Below, one piece after another: positions 6,503 to 64,000 of a stretch of 64,000 nt of DNA (positions within the stretch are counted from its first letter, which is position 1; every line of letters starts with the position of its first letter). The stretch is from Atopobium deltae (GTDB taxonomy: Bacteria; Actinomycetota; Coriobacteriia; Coriobacteriales; Atopobiaceae), in NCBI RefSeq assembly GCF_001552785.1, contig NZ_KQ959487.1, forward strand, positions 62,001-126,000. The letters run 5' to 3'. Made by a program: the position numbers and the translations under genes. The notes under the pieces were generated by a model. It ran no database searches and was not told the DNA's origin. It was given only the letters and a program-made list of their open reading frames with translations.

Positions 6503-7507
6503 ATGCGTATATTGGTTTACGGAGCGAAGAGTTACGACGTCGACTCGTTTAAAGCAGAACAAACACACTATCCCTCACTGGAACTCGAATTTACCGAGAC
6601 GGGACTCAATCCTTTTACCGCCTGTCTTGCTAATGGATACGACGCCGTATGCGCGTTTGTGAATGATAATCTTTCGGCCATGACCCTCGACATTCTTGCT
6701 GGTTGTGACATCAAACTCGTCCTCATGCGCTGCGCTGGGTATGACGCAGTCAACGTTGAGTATGCAAAAACGCTCGGCATAACCGTTCTGCGCGTCCCCG
6801 CCTATTCGCCCGAGGCAATCGCCGAGCATGCCATGGGCCTCGCGCTGTGCGCCAATCGCCGCATTCATCGCGGGTACAACCGCGTTCGCGATAATGACTA
6901 CTCGCTGGTCGGTCTTGTTGGTGAGACCCTCCATGACAAAACCGCTGGTATTATCGGCACGGGCCGTATTGGTGCAGCGCTGTGCCGCATTTGCAAGGGC
7001 TTTGGCATGACGGTGTTGGGAGCCGACCCCTACCCCAATCAAAAGTTGGTGGACGAAGAGCACGTCGTCGACGCCTATGTTTCTAACGAGGAGCTTTACC
7101 AGCGCAGTGACCTCATTTCGCTGCACGCATTTCTCGACGATAAGAGCTACCACATGATTAACGATAAGACCATCCGTGCCATGAAGGATGGCGTTATTTT
7201 TGTTAATACGAGCCGCGGTGGCTTGGTTGATACACCAGCACTCGTACGCGGCATTTTGTCGGGCAAAATTGGTGCCGCGGGCCTCGACGTGTATGAGGAA
7301 GAGAACCCCAACGTGTATCGCGACCGTACCGACGAAATTTTTGACCCCCCCACTGCGCAGCTGTGCGCATTTCCAAACGTGGTTGTTACCAGTCACCAGG
7401 CATTCTTTACCCGAGAAGCCCTCGCACAGATTGCTCATACGACCATGACGAATGCGCAAGCTTTTGCGGATAATCAACCGTTTATTAAGCAAAGTGTTGT
7501 ATGCTAA
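6503..7507 (+). CDS. ldhA: D-lactate dehydrogenase (2-hydroxyacid dehydrogenase family)
   Basis: A 334-residue D-isomer-specific 2-hydroxyacid dehydrogenase, reducing pyruvate to D-lactate with NADH. The dinucleotide-binding motif is AGIIGTGRIGAALC. The catalytic Arg lies in VNTSRGGLVDTPAL, the Glu in DVYEEENP and the His in VVVTSHQAF, in family order. An upstream in-frame TTG at 6425 would add 26 residues without homology, whereas the ATG at 6503 follows GAAAGG and opens with the typical MRILVYGAKSYD, so it is chosen. The next gene is pyruvate kinase, so the pair makes and then consumes pyruvate to regenerate NAD during fermentation. Confidence 0.9.
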   Translation: MRILVYGAKSYDVDSFKAEQTHYPSLELEFTETGLNPFTACLANGYDAVCAFVNDNLSAMTLDILAGCDIKLVLMRCAGYDAVNVEYAKTLGITVLRVPAYSPEAIAEHAMGLALCANRRIHRGYNRVRDNDYSLVGLVGETLHDKTAGIIGTGRIGAALCRICKGFGMTVLGADPYPNQKLVDEEHVVDAYVSNEELYQRSDLISLHAFLDDKSYHMINDKTIRAMKDGVIFVNTSRGGLVDTPALVRGILSGKIGAAGLDVYEEENPNVYRDRTDEIFDPPTAQLCAFPNVVVTSHQAFFTREALAQIAHTTMTNAQAFADNQPFIKQSVVC

Positions 7508-7521
7508 CGATACAGCAAAAT

Positions 7522-7600
7522 GCAACACGATTTGGAATGCCGCACACCGTTACTGCAGCACAATTTATATGCCGCACATCGTCAATGCAGCACAATTTGC
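7522..7600 (+). repeat. imperfect 32-33-bp tandem repeat upstream of pyk
   Basis: Two and a half tandem units lie at 7522-7554, 7555-7586 and 7587-7600. Each begins GCA(A/G)CAC(A/G)ATTT and carries ATGCCGCACA about 14 bases in. The array fills most of the gap between ldhA and pyk and ends just before the pyk ribosome site, so it is likely transcribed leader. No function is known to me. Confidence 0.6.
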
Positions 7601-38972: not shown

Positions 38973-39440
38973 ATGAATTCTCGTGGTTCATATAAAACAA
39001 AGCAACGAGAAGATATTATCGCATACCTCAGTGATCACAAAGACCATTACTTCTCGGTCGATAGCATTTATGCAGCACTGCGCGAGTTAGGCAGCGAAAT
39101 TGGTCGTACCACGGTGTATCGCAACCTCGAGCTTTTGGCGGCCGAACACATCGTCTTCAAGGCGTTCTCGCCTAAGGCAGAGGCGTTGTATCGTCTCGCC
39201 CCCGAAACCAATGCGGCGCAGCTGGTGTGTTTATCATGCGGCAAGGCTTTTGCGGTCGACTGCACCATGGTTGAGGATTTTACCTCGCATATTAAGGCTG
39301 AGCACGGATTTATCGTTAATGGCGAGAAGACCATCCTGTATGGCACCTGCCCTGAGTGCCTTCCCAAAGTCAAAGCGGAGCAAGCTGAACAGGCCACCGA
39401 CGCCGCCTCAGAAGCCGACGAGCTCGACACAACGGACTAA
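38973..39440 (+). CDS. Fur-family metal-dependent regulator
   Basis: A 155-residue Fur-family repressor. The winged helix is SVDSIYAALRELGSEIGRTTVYRNLELL (key run GRTTVYRNLELL), followed by a dimer domain with two CxxC motifs (CLSCGKAF and CPECLPK) that bind structural zinc, and HGFIVNGEKTILYG. The acidic C-terminal tail is unusual. Which metal it senses (Zur, Fur or PerR type) cannot be told, but Zur fits the two zinc-uptake loci in this window. A TATAAT lies at 38904-38909, followed by ATGAA-TG-TTCAT, a possible autoregulatory site. ATG 38973 follows GAGGGG. Confidence 0.9.
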   Translation: MNSRGSYKTKQREDIIAYLSDHKDHYFSVDSIYAALRELGSEIGRTTVYRNLELLAAEHIVFKAFSPKAEALYRLAPETNAAQLVCLSCGKAFAVDCTMVEDFTSHIKAEHGFIVNGEKTILYGTCPECLPKVKAEQAEQATDAASEADELDTTD

Positions 39441-44762: not shown

Positions 44763-45806
44763 ATGCAATCGATACCACAAAACACCACATGCGCCGCACA
44801 AAACGCCTGCGCGGCCGCAATGCGCACCACATCCCGCAGAACACAGCTCGCAACAACGCTTCTAAGCTTTGTTCTTCTCACCTGCCTTGCGAGCTTTTTA
44901 GCCCTTAACCTGAGCGGCTGTGCTGGCAAATCACCTTCAAACACGGGATCGAATGCAACAAGCTCCTCCCCCAACGCCGCAGGAAAGCAAACGATTTACA
45001 CCACGTTTTTCCCCGTCTACGACCTTACCAAGCGCATCGTTGGCGATAAAATGGACGTCAAAATGATCATCAAAGGCAACCAGGAGCCTCACGATTTTGA
45101 GCTGCAAGCTGCCGATATGGCTAACATTTCTAAGGCGCGCCTCATTGTATATAACGGTGCGGGTATGGAAAACTTCATCGATGATCTGAAAGCAAGCGCC
45201 AAGGATGACTCGAAGTTTTTGGATCTTTCGCAGGGGCTCACCCTTTTGCAAAGCAAGGATGCCAAAAAGGATGATCACTCGAGCGTGAATCCGCACACTT
45301 GGTTAAGCATCAAAAATGCCTTGGTTGGCCTCAATACCATTTACACCAAGCTCGCAAGTATCGACCCCGATAATGCCGACTACTACAAAGCGAATTACGA
45401 AAAAGCAAAGGCCGAATTTGAGGCGCTCGACAAAAAGTTTACGGACGCCCTCGCGCCAATTCCTGCCGAGAAGCGCTACTTTGTCGTTTCACACGCAGCC
45501 TTTAACTATCTGGCACAGGACTACGGCTTAAAACAGGTGGCTGTAACTGGTATTTCTCCAGAAGATGAGCCCTCAGCAGCCCAGCTTGCGACCATCGCCG
45601 ACTTCGTCAAAAAGCACAAGATTTCAACCATTTTCTTTGAAGGCAAGGCCACGCCCAAGGTCGCCGATACCCTCGCAAAAAACACGGGCACAAAGACCGA
45701 CACCATCTACACGATGGAAAGCCTCACAGAAGATGAGCAAAAGCAGGGTTACCTCGCCTTGATGGAGCATAACCTCAAGGTGCTCACCAGGGCACTGCAG
45801 GCTTAA
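44763..45806 (+). CDS. znuA: zinc/manganese ABC transporter substrate-binding lipoprotein (cluster A-I)
   Basis: A 347-residue lipoprotein. A long signal peptide ends in a lipobox LSGC with Cys53. The metal-binding cluster A-I fold shows YTTFFPVYDLTKRIVG, the first His in QEPHDFELQAAD, the second in VNPHTWLSIKNA, the third in VVSHAAFNYLAQDYG, and the acidic ligand region FFEGKATPKVADTLA. It captures Zn2+ (or Mn2+) outside the membrane for the ATPase and permease encoded next. ATG 44763 follows AAGGAG. Confidence 0.93.
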   Translation: MQSIPQNTTCAAQNACAAAMRTTSRRTQLATTLLSFVLLTCLASFLALNLSGCAGKSPSNTGSNATSSSPNAAGKQTIYTTFFPVYDLTKRIVGDKMDVKMIIKGNQEPHDFELQAADMANISKARLIVYNGAGMENFIDDLKASAKDDSKFLDLSQGLTLLQSKDAKKDDHSSVNPHTWLSIKNALVGLNTIYTKLASIDPDNADYYKANYEKAKAEFEALDKKFTDALAPIPAEKRYFVVSHAAFNYLAQDYGLKQVAVTGISPEDEPSAAQLATIADFVKKHKISTIFFEGKATPKVADTLAKNTGTKTDTIYTMESLTEDEQKQGYLALMEHNLKVLTRALQA

Positions 45807-57287: not shown

Positions 57288-58112
57288 CTATACCTTGATT
57301 GACGGAGGCACCACCTTCGTTTTTCTCGTCAGGCGTGCGTAAATCAAGAAGAGCACAATGCCGATGACCGCGCTTACTACGATGGAGCCACCAGGGCGCA
57401 CGTCGTAATGGTACGAAAACGTCAAGCCGCTCAAAGTGTAAATCATGCCCAGAATCACGGACAAAATGCAGGTCTGCTTATAGCTGCGTGCGACGATAAG
57501 GGCCGTCGCGACGGGCAGCGTCACGAGCGACACTACCAACAGAGCGCCCACGACTTTGCAGGCAAGCGCAATCATAATGGCGGTAACCAGCGTAAAGATG
57601 CCGTTGACAAAGCCAACCTTCACGCCCGACAGACGGGCAATGGTGGTGTCCACAGCCAAATCCAACAAGGCCGCATAAAAGACAATACTGATGACCACGG
57701 TCAGCACAAACACAGCCGCCGTGCTGATAAGATCAACCACGGTCACCGACGAAATCGAGCCAAACAAATACGACTCAAAGGTGTTTCCACCAGGGGCGAG
57801 GTCGGCCAAAATAACGGACAGACCCAGGCCAGCGCTCATAATAACCGCCACCGACATATCGCCGAAGTGCGGCATCTTAGCACGAATGCCCTCGATGAAG
57901 AAGGCCGAAATCACGCAGCTAATCACGGCGCCAATAACGGGATTGAATCCCAAAATCAAACCGAAGCCAACACCCATAAGCGAAGCATGCGACAGAGCGT
58001 CGCTGACCATCGACGTTTTGCGGTTGATCATCACAATACCAATCAGGGGCAACGCAATCGCAAGCATGATGCCAGCAGCGAGCGTGCGGCGCATAAAGTC
58101 AAACTCAAGCAC
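57288..58112 (-). CDS. znuB: zinc/manganese ABC transporter permease, second locus
   Basis: A 274-residue ABC-3 permease with eight or nine membrane segments. MVSDALSHASLMGVGFGLILG and VVGALLVVSLVTLPVATA are the family landmarks; the latter differs from the first-locus permease (TIGSLIVSSLLVVPV), so they are paralogues rather than recent copies. Its start overlaps the end of the ATPase gene by 8 bases. Confidence 0.92.
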   Translation of the reverse strand: MLEFDFMRRTLAAGIMLAIALPLIGIVMINRKTSMVSDALSHASLMGVGFGLILGFNPVIGAVISCVISAFFIEGIRAKMPHFGDMSVAVIMSAGLGLSVILADLAPGGNTFESYLFGSISSVTVVDLISTAAVFVLTVVISIVFYAALLDLAVDTTIARLSGVKVGFVNGIFTLVTAIMIALACKVVGALLVVSLVTLPVATALIVARSYKQTCILSVILGMIYTLSGLTFSYHYDVRPGGSIVVSAVIGIVLFLIYARLTRKTKVVPPSIKV

Positions 58113-58776
58113 GATTCATCCTTCCTGCATCAATTTTGTACGTTGCATCAAAGCTCACATGCCTGCATACCAGCTCAAGCTCATGCGAGACGAGCAGCGT
58201 CGTAATGTCGCGCTCTTTGCGAATGCGCTCGAGGGTATCCAAGAAGCTAATTTTGCTGTCATTGTCGACACCAGCGGTAGGCTCGTCCAAAATCAACAGC
58301 TGCGGGTTGTTGATAAGCGCGCGGGTAATCATGACGCGCTGTTGCAAACCACCCGAAAGCTCATTAAAAGGAACGTTGATATAGGTGGACAGCCCCATTT
58401 GCTTTAGCGCCGTTGACGCCTTTTGAATATGCTTTTTACGAGGCACTTTAATAAAACCAAAGTCGTTATACAAACCTAAGCAGACCATCTCGCAACAGGT
58501 TGTGGGAAAGGCAACCTTGTCCATCACACTTGCCTGAGGAACATACCCAATACGCGTCAGGTCGGTAAGCTTGTCGATGGGCGTACCAAACAGCTCTACC
58601 TTGCCTTTGAAGCCTTTGAGCTCGCCCAGCAAGACCTTTAACAGCGTCGACTTGCCCGAGCCATTCTCGCCCGTAATACAACACGCCTCGCCCTTCTCGA
58701 CGCAAAAATCAATGCCGCGTAGCACGGGGTCGGCCGTATATCCAAACGTAAGCTCGCTTACATCAATAATGTGCAT
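58105..58776 (-). CDS. znuC: zinc/manganese ABC transporter ATPase, second locus
   Basis: A 223-residue ABC ATPase: Walker A GENGSGKST, Q-loop YVPQASVM, signature LSGGLQQR, Walker B LLILDEPTAGVD, switch His in LVSHELEL. It lies 11 bases after the substrate-binding gene and overlaps the permease gene. Confidence 0.92.
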   Translation of the reverse strand: MHIIDVSELTFGYTADPVLRGIDFCVEKGEACCITGENGSGKSTLLKVLLGELKGFKGKVELFGTPIDKLTDLTRIGYVPQASVMDKVAFPTTCCEMVCLGLYNDFGFIKVPRKKHIQKASTALKQMGLSTYINVPFNELSGGLQQRVMITRALINNPQLLILDEPTAGVDNDSKISFLDTLERIRKERDITTLLVSHELELVCRHVSFDATYKIDAGRMNRA

Positions 58777-58787
58777 AGCGTCTCCTA

Positions 58788-60125
58788 CTACTTCAGCGAC
58801 TCGTAAATCGCCTCGATATTTGCTCTCATAATTTCGACGTAGCCGTTCATCTTGCTGCCCTGCTCCTCGCTGACATACTCCATCGAGGCCAGCGGAATCG
58901 CCTTGCCGCCGATTTCTCCGGCTACGGTATCGGCACCCTTGGACGACGCACCAAGCTCGTAAAACACGGTGTTGACGTTATGACGTTTGCAAAAATCAAC
59001 CGCCTTGCGCACCGTTTTGAGCGCGGGGGCCTCGGTGGACGTCAGTCCCTGCAAGGGAAAATGTTTAATGTTAAAGTCGCGGCATAAATACGAGTACGCG
59101 TTGTGCGTGACCACAAATTCGCGCCGCTCCAGCTTCGAGAACTTCTCGTTATACTCGGCCGTAATGTCGGTTAGCCGAGAAACCACGTTGAGCTTGTTCT
59201 TTTTAAAGCTGCGCGCCTCGTCGGGTGCCAGCTCGCATAAGCGATCCTGAATAGCGCTGCAATACTGCTTCGCGTTGACGAGCGACAGCCACGAGTGCGG
59301 GTCAAAGGTGATCTTATCGTGACCCGATGATGAGCCTTCCATCAGGGTTTTTGTTGGAATTTCGTCGTCATTCTCGCGCGTCACAAAGCGATACGACAGC
59401 AAGCTTTCGGAAGCGCGATCCGAAATAATGATCCAGTCGTCTCCGTCGGGAAGGGTAAAGCCAATGTAGCCGCTTTCGTGACCCATCTCCAGCGCGTAAA
59501 CGTGGTCGGGCTCCACCGTAAACGTCGTGTGCTGCGTCACGACGGACCCCTTTTGATTCATAATGCTGCGACCGTGCTTAATGAGGTCGGCCTGACTCAT
59601 CTGCTTTTTGTCTTTGAGAAATGCGACGCGCAGAATATCCTGGTGCGTGTGACCAAATTCAAAGCCGTAGGTCCCTGGCTTGACCTCAAGGCGGGCCATG
59701 AACTGGAACTCTCCCATGGCGGCGGCACCTTTATAGGTGATAAGTTCGATGCTGTCGGACAGCTTTAGCACGGGCAGGTCGGGCAGATTGTCGCGCACTT
59801 GGTCGAGCCAGTGCTCCATGTTGGCACCGTTTACGACCAGTAGGTGTGATTCTGACAAATTGCGCAGCGACCGAGGCGTGGGCTCCCACATGTGGGGATC
59901 CTTGTTCGATGGCATAAATGAATGCAGGTTAATGGCGTCGCCCGCCACCTCGCGCACCAAATCAAAGACGGGATAAAACGAGGCATACACGGTTGGTTTT
60001 TGCCCCTCTTGCAGGGCATGTTTATGACCAGAACGCCCAGCACACGCAGAAAGTGAGCCGAGCGCCAGAGAAGACAGCGATGCTGATGCACATAAGCCGA
60101 GAAATGCTCTTCTCGAGTAATCCAT
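58788..60125 (-). CDS. znuA: ZnuA-like substrate-binding lipoprotein with a large inserted domain
   Basis: A 445-residue protein. The signal carries a twin-arginine motif (SRRAFLG) and a lipobox LSAC (Cys28), so it is probably a Tat-exported lipoprotein. The cluster A-I fold is split: YASFYPVFDLVREV and the first His in DPHMWEPT (His78), then an insert at about residues 132-268, then the second His in DPHSWLS (His277), VVTHNAYSYLCRDF and the C-terminal VFYELGASSKGADT. Common ZnuA has only a short His-rich loop at this point. The insert is beta-rich in look and carries FGHTHQD, TQHTTF and EMGHESGY, which could bind metal. ATG 60125 follows GGAG. Confidence 0.88.
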   Translation of the reverse strand: MDYSRRAFLGLCASASLSSLALGSLSACAGRSGHKHALQEGQKPTVYASFYPVFDLVREVAGDAINLHSFMPSNKDPHMWEPTPRSLRNLSESHLLVVNGANMEHWLDQVRDNLPDLPVLKLSDSIELITYKGAAAMGEFQFMARLEVKPGTYGFEFGHTHQDILRVAFLKDKKQMSQADLIKHGRSIMNQKGSVVTQHTTFTVEPDHVYALEMGHESGYIGFTLPDGDDWIIISDRASESLLSYRFVTRENDDEIPTKTLMEGSSSGHDKITFDPHSWLSLVNAKQYCSAIQDRLCELAPDEARSFKKNKLNVVSRLTDITAEYNEKFSKLERREFVVTHNAYSYLCRDFNIKHFPLQGLTSTEAPALKTVRKAVDFCKRHNVNTVFYELGASSKGADTVAGEIGGKAIPLASMEYVSEEQGSKMNGYVEIMRANIEAIYESLK

Positions 60126-60213
60126 ATAACACTCCTGTGGTGTAATGGTATCTATCGTACATATATGAAAAAACTTACATATGCCAAATCTTTCAGATAA
60201 GCACGTTATAAGA

Positions 60214-60314
60214 AAGCAGGCTGCCTGCGGCACGTGCCGCACTCAATCGTGCGTACGTGTGTCGCACGTGGGGCGTGTCGAGCACAGTATGTGCCATGCA
60301 CAAGCAGCCTGCTT
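60214..60314 (-). promoter_or_regulatory. nested palindromes between zinT and znuA
   Basis: AAGCAGGCTGC (60214-60224) and GCAGCCTGCTT (60304-60314) are exact complements enclosing 79 bases; the 3' arm is followed by TTCTTAT in the transcript. Inside lies the perfect 14-bp palindrome GCGGCACGTGCCGC (60227-60240) and further GTGC/GCAC words. It looks like a structured attenuator or partial terminator between the first two genes of the operon. Confidence 0.5.
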
Positions 60315-60329
60315 GCAAGCTACAAAGAT

Positions 60330-60971
60330 TTATTCTTTGATCTCGCCCTTGATCTGATCAAGCGTGGTAGAAGGCTTCACGAAGGTGGGATACCAATCGG
60401 TCTTCTTCTCCATCTCCTCTACGCTTGCGCCAAAGCGAAGGTGGAAGTGAACGAGCTCTTCCTCACCGTGAACGCCCATGAGCATCATGTAAGGATACTT
60501 GGCATCCTTATCGGTAGCCTTGAAAATGTTCCACTCGAGCTCGGCGCCGCCGTGCTTAACCTTCTTGGCCTCGACAAACTCGTACTTGGACTTAGCAATC
60601 TCTTTGCCGTCCTTGTCCTTAAAACCATCAAGGAAGGTGATGCTGTCCTCGGTAACCTCGATGCCCTTGAACTCTGCGGCAGTCTTGGTCTTCATCTCGT
60701 TTTTAACATCTTCGGGCTTCTTGTTGTCGCGCTTGGCTACCTCTTCGTAGGTAGCGTCAAGCTCTTTTTCGTCGAGATAACCGTCGATGCTGTTCCAAAC
60801 ACCCTTCCAGTCAGCCAAAGAAGCAGCCTTCTTGGTGTCTTTTTGCGCAGACTCGGCTGGCTTTTCTTGCGACTTTGAGGTATCCTGAGCCTTCTGTCCG
60901 CCGCAGCCCACGAGCGTGAGCGCCAACACCATAGAGATGCCAGAAGCGGCAATACCGGTAAGCTTGTTCAT
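60330..60971 (-). CDS. zinT: ZinT-domain zinc-binding lipoprotein
   Basis: A 213-residue lipoprotein: signal with lipobox LVGC (Cys23), a charged Lys/Ser/Glu linker to about residue 50, then a ZinT (YodA) domain starting LADWKGVWNSIDGYLDE, the family opening. The zinc ligands are visible near the end as VHGEEELVHFHLRFG (three His). ZinT binds Zn2+ outside the membrane and feeds ZnuA, and here the gene heads the operon that contains that ZnuA. Confidence 0.92.
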   Translation of the reverse strand: MNKLTGIAASGISMVLALTLVGCGGQKAQDTSKSQEKPAESAQKDTKKAASLADWKGVWNSIDGYLDEKELDATYEEVAKRDNKKPEDVKNEMKTKTAAEFKGIEVTEDSITFLDGFKDKDGKEIAKSKYEFVEAKKVKHGGAELEWNIFKATDKDAKYPYMMLMGVHGEEELVHFHLRFGASVEEMEKKTDWYPTFVKPSTTLDQIKGEIKE

Positions 60972-63450: not shown

Positions 63451-64000
63451 TTAGCGCTTGTCTGCCTTCTTGTTGCGCCTGTGTGCAACAAACCACGAGG
63501 CTGCAAGCATACCTGATCCCATGAGCGTTCCAACAAGGCTTGTCGAAATGTTGGTCAGATCACCCGTCTTTGGCACGGCGCGGGTTGCAGCGGCCTTGGG
63601 CGATGGCTTGGGCGTGGGCTTAGGCGCAGACGGCGGCACTGGGTGAGGATCGGCAGCCTTTGTAGGAACAACCGTCAACTGGATGGTCTTCTCGTCAGAA
63701 GCAGAAGAATCCTTGCCGTCGGGCCACTGTACCGCGTTCCACACAAACGAGAACAGCTTGCGCGTGCCCGCTTGTGACGTAGCCACGGCCGAGAAGTCTC
63801 CCACAACCGTACCGACAATCGTATGTGGCTTGCCAACGGTCGCCTCGTGGTCCAGCTCGACGGCAGGTACGGTCAGCTTCATCCAACCGTCGGCGGCGCC
63901 CGCAGCGTCAACCACAGCTTTAAGGTCGGCGTAAGTCTTGATCGCGGCGGGATTAGCCAGCGCAAAGCGCACGGTGACCGTTTTGCCGCTCACTGAAACG
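63451..64000 (-). CDS. C-terminal part of a sortase-anchored surface protein
   Basis: The frame is open to the right edge; 182 codons are visible. A beta-rich extracellular domain (LTVPAVELDHEATVGKPHTI, IVGTVVGDFSAVATS) is followed by a Pro/Lys/Ala-rich wall-spanning region (about 64 residues from the end), the sorting signal VPKTGD (LPXTG-type), a hydrophobic span, and the basic end RRNKKADKR. This is the standard order for covalent attachment to peptidoglycan by sortase. It may be a pilin or adhesin; the N-terminal part lies outside the window. Confidence 0.82.
   Translation of the reverse strand, partial: VSVSGKTVTVRFALANPAAIKTYADLKAVVDAAGAADGWMKLTVPAVELDHEATVGKPHTIVGTVVGDFSAVATSQAGTRKLFSFVWNAVQWPDGKDSSASDEKTIQLTVVPTKAADPHPVPPSAPKPTPKPSPKAAATRAVPKTGDLTNISTSLVGTLMGSGMLAASWFVAHRRNKKADKR

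Follow-up and report, generated by a model that had tools for sequence, protein, structure and literature searches.

The locus analyzed here lies in a 64,000-nucleotide stretch of Atopobium deltae DNA (the window) and consists of four genes, zinT, znuA, znuC, and znuB, all on the minus strand, which carries every feature given below with its coordinates unless stated otherwise. The first gene, zinT (60330..60971), encodes a divergent ZinT lipoprotein of 213 amino acids with the lipobox LVGC and the ligand motif VHGEEELVHFH. It matches PF09223 (E=1.3e-14, 54.9 bits against a cut-off of 27) and reaches 51 bits against the NCBIfam ZinT model, for which the cut-off is 300. The ATPase gene znuC (58105..58776; PF00005, E=1.8e-29) and the permease gene znuB (57288..58112; PF00950, E=6.2e-51) follow znuA. 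Upstream of zinT and on the same strand, the window holds the C-terminal part of a surface protein (63451-63999) that bears a sortase-like anchor (VPKTGD) and a spacer rich in proline, and a methyltransferase-like gene lies between the two on the other strand.

The znuA gene (58788..60125) encodes a cluster A-I zinc-binding lipoprotein with an inserted domain, as a precursor of 445 amino acids. The start codon is an ATG (60125) with an AGGAG Shine-Dalgarno sequence upstream; a 484-amino-acid open reading frame from a GTG at 60242 was rejected as an over-extension since the longer frame has no support. Both lobes of the binding protein are covered by the match to PF01297 in Pfam (E=1e-64, residues 45-441), and its best sequence relatives in the PDB, Bacillus subtilis YcdH and pneumococcal AdcA, each align in two pieces that flank the insert. 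Furthermore, an AlphaFold2 model of the whole mature protein superimposes on MntA, PsaA, YcdH, and ZnuA structures with Z scores of approximately 25. Alignment to AdcA and YcdH predicts a core zinc-ligand set of three histidines and one glutamate: His78 in a DPH motif (59892..59894), assigned by homology to AdcA/ZnuA; His277 in DPHSW (59295..59297), which aligns to the DPH.W of YcdH and AdcA; His341 in THNAY (59103..59105); and Glu416 in SMEYV (58878..58880), at the position of Glu279 among the AdcA ligands (PMC7858048). All four residues are invariant across the nine insert-bearing proteins that we aligned. The window contains a second znuA, without an insert, at 44763..45806 on the plus strand. 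A gene for a Fur-family regulator (38994-39320) lies approximately 5 kb from this insert-free znuA and its ATPase gene.

We found that metal ligands 1 and 2 are separated by 199 residues in the window ZnuA, while the same spacing is 61-141 residues in 30 ZnuA homologues that have no known insert. The original prediction had placed about 135 extra residues between the first two metal ligands; the segment is real, but its size is closer to 143 residues (precursor residues 132-274; 59304..59732). It ends just before DPHSW, where other ZnuA members have a short or histidine-rich loop. AlphaFold2 predicted the segment to be folded rather than disordered in two models. Alone it forms a compact, beta-rich domain of ten strands and one helix (pLDDT 79.6, pTM 0.79), and within the full ZnuA chain it folds about as well. 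Profile searches of the insert returned no known, widespread domain in Pfam, NCBIfam, PHROGs, or PDB sequences, so that the two findings most damaging to the idea of a novel inserted domain, disorder and membership of a common family, were both absent from our data. The best Pfam match, T6SS-SciN (E=0.23), fell below the cut-off and was set aside, and nothing real was found in NCBIfam, PHROGs, PDB sequences, or plasmids searched with tblastn. A Foldseek comparison of the predicted fold with solved structures gave a best E of 0.029 (probability 0.30), which is weak, and the best VIA-align match (Z 5.0, rmsd 3.5, 88 aligned residues) indicates a weak resemblance to jelly-roll capsid proteins. 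These matches appear to reflect common jelly-roll arrangements, none of them clear, and we therefore assign the insert neither to a known fold nor to a new one. Two origins for the domain were considered and rejected: an internal duplication, to which the similar segments YGFEFGH and YALEMGH had pointed (p=0.18 against shuffles), and a diverged ZinT (hhalign probability 0.1%, no match to PF09223).

The insert is conserved as strongly as the transporter core. Mean pairwise identity among the nine members is 70.7% for the insert, 70.5% for the N lobe, and 71.8% for the C lobe. Furthermore, the insert is under purifying selection, with a dN/dS of 0.07-0.13 in two close pairs, and the spacing between ligands 1 and 2 is 199-200 residues in all nine genomes. 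Together, this spacing, the mean identity of approximately 71%, and the low dN/dS exclude chance as an explanation for the insert. Among the histidine motifs to which the original prediction drew attention, GHTH (His159 and His161; 59643..59651) and GHES (His216; 59478..59480) are invariant in nine of nine members, but QH is not conserved and reads QR in one of them (L039). In the AlphaFold2 model, GHTHxD and GHES each sit in a short turn between two predicted strands. Since ZinT coordinates zinc with an HxH plus H set, and the invariant set of the insert resembles the H...HxH of ZinT, it is reasonable to infer that His159, His161, and His216 form a second zinc site, with His216 as its candidate third ligand, while bearing in mind that this set was chosen after the fact out of 71 invariant columns.

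We considered whether the domain might act without a partner. One possibility is that the insert is an autonomous buffering domain for zinc or other divalent metals that feeds the cleft and stands in, as a folded unit, for the histidine-rich loop, with ZinT as an independent buffer encoded in the same operon. The invariance of GHTH and GHES would suit such a role, as would the metal-feeding role proposed for canonical histidine-rich loops at that place (PMC7858048) and the presence of histidine-rich loops there in several insert-free paralogues. We nevertheless regard autonomous buffering as somewhat doubtful because it leaves unexplained why, in our sample of the class, the insert is restricted to cassettes that encode ZinT. 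It is more improbable still, and in our judgment quite unlikely, that the insert has a structural or regulatory role in cleft opening or ZnuB docking and binds no metal of its own. Its placement between the first two metal ligands and the strong tracking of the C lobe by its divergence (r=0.89) are consistent with this, but the four core ligands are canonical, related ZnuAs use a normal permease without any such domain, and a purely structural role needs no invariant GHTH and GHES.

The N terminus of ZnuA (60042..60125) was predicted to combine a twin-arginine motif with a lipobox. Both are present, as SRRAFL (residues 4-9) and LSAC with lipidated Cys28, separated by an uncharged h-region, and the genome encodes TatC (E=4.9e-54), which makes a Tat-lipoprotein signal plausible. 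The combination is not special, however: insert-free paralogues also have lipoprotein signals of the RR type, and the twin arginine, kept in eight of the nine insert members, is RK in the ninth. The export signal therefore says little about the insert, and a Tat-type signal is ordinary for these bacteria.

We next consider the distribution of the domain. A scan of one genome per species across 84,980 species, which requires exact peptide patterns and so would miss distant relatives, found the insert in seven loci, all within Coriobacteriia, a class of actinobacteria from the gut and mouth (Olegusella, two Atopobium-named genomes, Slackia exigua, Gordonibacter sp., Berryella, and one further Coriobacteriales). 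Within the class, the insert was found in 9 of 398 genomes from six genera, a patchy distribution, and two genus-mates of the window's genome are without it. No other real match was found among 296 genomes drawn from the phylum, where weak matches (L081-L083, E 0.006-0.05) were taken as chance because they lie in long proteins unlike binding proteins, and no relatives were found in viral contigs. In a tree built from core sequences, the nine insert ZnuAs cluster together on a long stem with 100/100 support, and their nearest group among the sampled ZnuAs comprises insert-free ZnuAs of the same genomes together with their relatives. This grouping on the core tree makes a single origin of the insert, followed by patchy spread or loss, most likely.

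The carriers of the insert include oral and other human-associated species. This, together with a beta domain that has many conserved residues, would agree with an insert that binds a partner other than ZinT, such as a metallophore, a protein with which the host sequesters zinc, or a ligand on the cell wall or host surface, and so serves zinc stripping or acts as an Lmb-type adhesin. Host-protein binding by AdcA and Lmb relatives (PMC8878332, PMC3691195) adds to the case. We consider a partner of this kind unlikely, since the conserved neighbors at the nine insert loci showed no metallophore genes and since ZinT, a conserved partner inside the cassette, is the simpler candidate.

The surroundings of the insert-type znuA are invariant. 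That znuA follows zinT was borne out well beyond the window, as zinT lies directly upstream in all nine insert loci, each of which is ordered zinT-znuA-znuC-znuB while the outer flanks vary between genera. The proposed survey of Coriobacteriia homologues thus yielded complete linkage of insert and ZinT. Moreover, ZinT was detected in only 10 of the 398 class genomes, namely the nine insert genomes and a tenth, G342, in which ZinT itself occupies the same site. Perfect linkage can, however, come from a cassette that is inherited as a unit. In a mirror-tree comparison, distances among ZinTs correlate with those of the insert (r=0.74), the C lobe (r=0.59), and the N lobe (r=0.34). In a column bootstrap, the excess of the ZinT-insert correlation was absent in 5.6% of replicates over the whole core and in 15% over the C lobe, so that closer tracking of ZinT by the insert than by the core is only suggestive.

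The linked ZinTs (P0002, which is the product of window positions 60330-60971, and those of L033-L039 and L047) form a divergent group that keeps the three ligand histidines (H...HFH) and has VHGEEE(L/M) beside the HFH ligands. This acidic patch adjoins the metal ligands and could serve as a docking surface. In Coriobacteriales bacterium DNF00809, the znuA with the insert is preceded by two tandem zinT genes (L038:5806-6459 and 6916-7572). In Olegusella-type loci, the gene directly after znuB (L033:10632-12815, L034:4346-6529) encodes a P-type ATPase whose N terminus is very rich in His and Cys. In the window, the gap between zinT and znuA contains a GC-rich, terminator-like inverted repeat, GCAAGCAGGCTGC...GCAGGCAGCCTGC, followed by TTTCTT (60216-60310; hairpin at 60216..60228). 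The repeat could be a terminator or attenuator that separates the level of ZinT from that of the transporter, bearing in mind that terminator-like hairpin matches were no more numerous than in shuffles. A simple scan for a shared operator upstream of zinT found no common palindrome.

We hypothesize that zinT-znuACB encodes a dedicated zinc importer in which the insert is probably a metal-binding port, and most likely the surface on which the co-encoded ZinT docks. We hold this reading with middling confidence. It draws on the four retained core ligands, on a folded and conserved insert with an HxH plus H set, on the linkage to zinT and the mirror-tree result, and on the precedents of L049, AdcA, and TIGR03772 discussed below. 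According to this hypothesis, a folded, probably metal-binding beta domain would stand in for the flexible histidine-rich gateway loop. Zinc would first be captured by lipoprotein ZinT, by the His159/His161/His216 cluster of the insert, or by both. ZinT would dock on the insert as on a fixed acceptor port, with the histidine cluster serving as a waypoint or acceptor, and zinc would then cross a short gap to reach the His78/His277/His341/Glu416 site of ZnuA before moving on to ZnuB and ZnuC. The insert would in this way do in trans what ZinT would do in cis in AdcA or in the loop-inserted L049. A more specific and more tentative proposal, to which we give less credence, is that the insert represents a new family of zinc-chaperone-receiving domains, in which a folded port docks a separate ZinT and uses an HxH/H site of its own to hand zinc on to the ZnuA cleft, and that accessory domains were inserted independently at the cluster A-I gateway at least three times, the insert being one such case.

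The binding protein belongs to a known family, ZnuA, and it is the inserted domain that is new; insertion at that site has a precedent in TIGR03772. Among the titles and abstracts listed by targeted searches of open-licence papers, none described the inserted domain or a ZinT placed in the loop. The way in which ZinT assists ZnuA is unsettled, and no direct ZinT-ZnuA interaction has been observed in vivo in Gram-negatives (PMC7858048). The insert lineage offers a clean, deletable handle on this question since it keeps ZinT separate and has a folded domain at the very place where, in AdcA, the loop touches the ZinT-like domain, and the handle is strengthened by a related lineage with ZinT at the same site. 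Taken together with the corynebacterial case, the histidine-loop site would be a recurrent slot for accessory zinc domains, the recognition of which would aid annotation.

Lastly, we compared the cassette to known systems. The window ZnuA shares with AdcA/ZnuA proteins of cluster A-I (YcdH, 2O1E; AdcA, 7JJ9) the same fold (Z approximately 24-25) and the same four zinc ligands, as well as a lipoprotein nature, znuC-znuB partners, and an accessory region at the histidine-rich loop. In AdcA, however, the ZinT domain is C-terminal and the histidine-rich loop is largely unresolved, while the window has a folded domain in place of the loop and ZinT as a separate lipoprotein; its ZnuA ends with the C lobe, and a C-terminal ZinT fusion of the AdcA type is absent. 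The base of the AdcA histidine-rich loop, at the position of the insert, contributes to the contact surface with the ZinT-like domain; the authors of that study speculate that the loop moves zinc across to or from this domain (PMC7858048). Compared to ZinT itself (PF09223; Escherichia coli YodA/ZinT), the window zinT product has the H...HFH ligand set but is divergent and carries a lipobox.

An architectural parallel within the same bacterial order is L049 of genome G342 (982-2574), a ZnuA-family protein in which metal ligands 1 and 2 are separated by a complete ZinT domain (E=2e-53), whereas AdcA has its ZinT domain at the C terminus. The domain sits between ESHSYEP and DEHVWTSP, which is the site of the window insert, so that the likeness consists of an accessory zinc domain at the same place. 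The inserted domain differs, being ZinT in L049 and an unrelated domain accompanied by a stand-alone ZinT in the window, and the ZinT of L049 has an SDHLHAPE-type segment where that of the window has VHGEEE. On the core tree, L049 falls in a distant ZnuA clade, separate from the nine insert ZnuAs. Its tree neighbor L021 has a 141-residue low-complexity spacer at the ligand 1-2 site.

The TIGR03772 anchored-repeat binding proteins, which include Corynebacterium diphtheriae ZnuA, are also zinc-binding proteins in which a long insertion separates ligand 1 from ligand 2 (the two ligands are 278-288 residues apart in proteins of other actinobacteria), and they have partner surface proteins in the gene cluster. 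The window ZnuA scored 84.6 bits against this model, for which the cut-off is 350, with its best stretch in the C lobe only, and an hhalign comparison of the two inserts, made from shallow profiles, gave a probability of 0.2%. A very remote link may exist, as HxH motifs occur in both. In C. diphtheriae ZnuA, an HxD/HxH motif is present apart from the three zinc ligands His63, His317, and His383, and the adjacent genes encode proteins of the membrane and cell wall that share this motif and bound zinc in thermal-shift assays (PMC12445094). The partners in that system are therefore HxD/HxH membrane and wall proteins rather than ZinT, and the clade in the tree differs as well. Since one and the same site carries three different insertions, two with a connection to ZinT and the third with other zinc-binding proteins as partners, a zinc-handling role appears to be the most economical reading of the insert.
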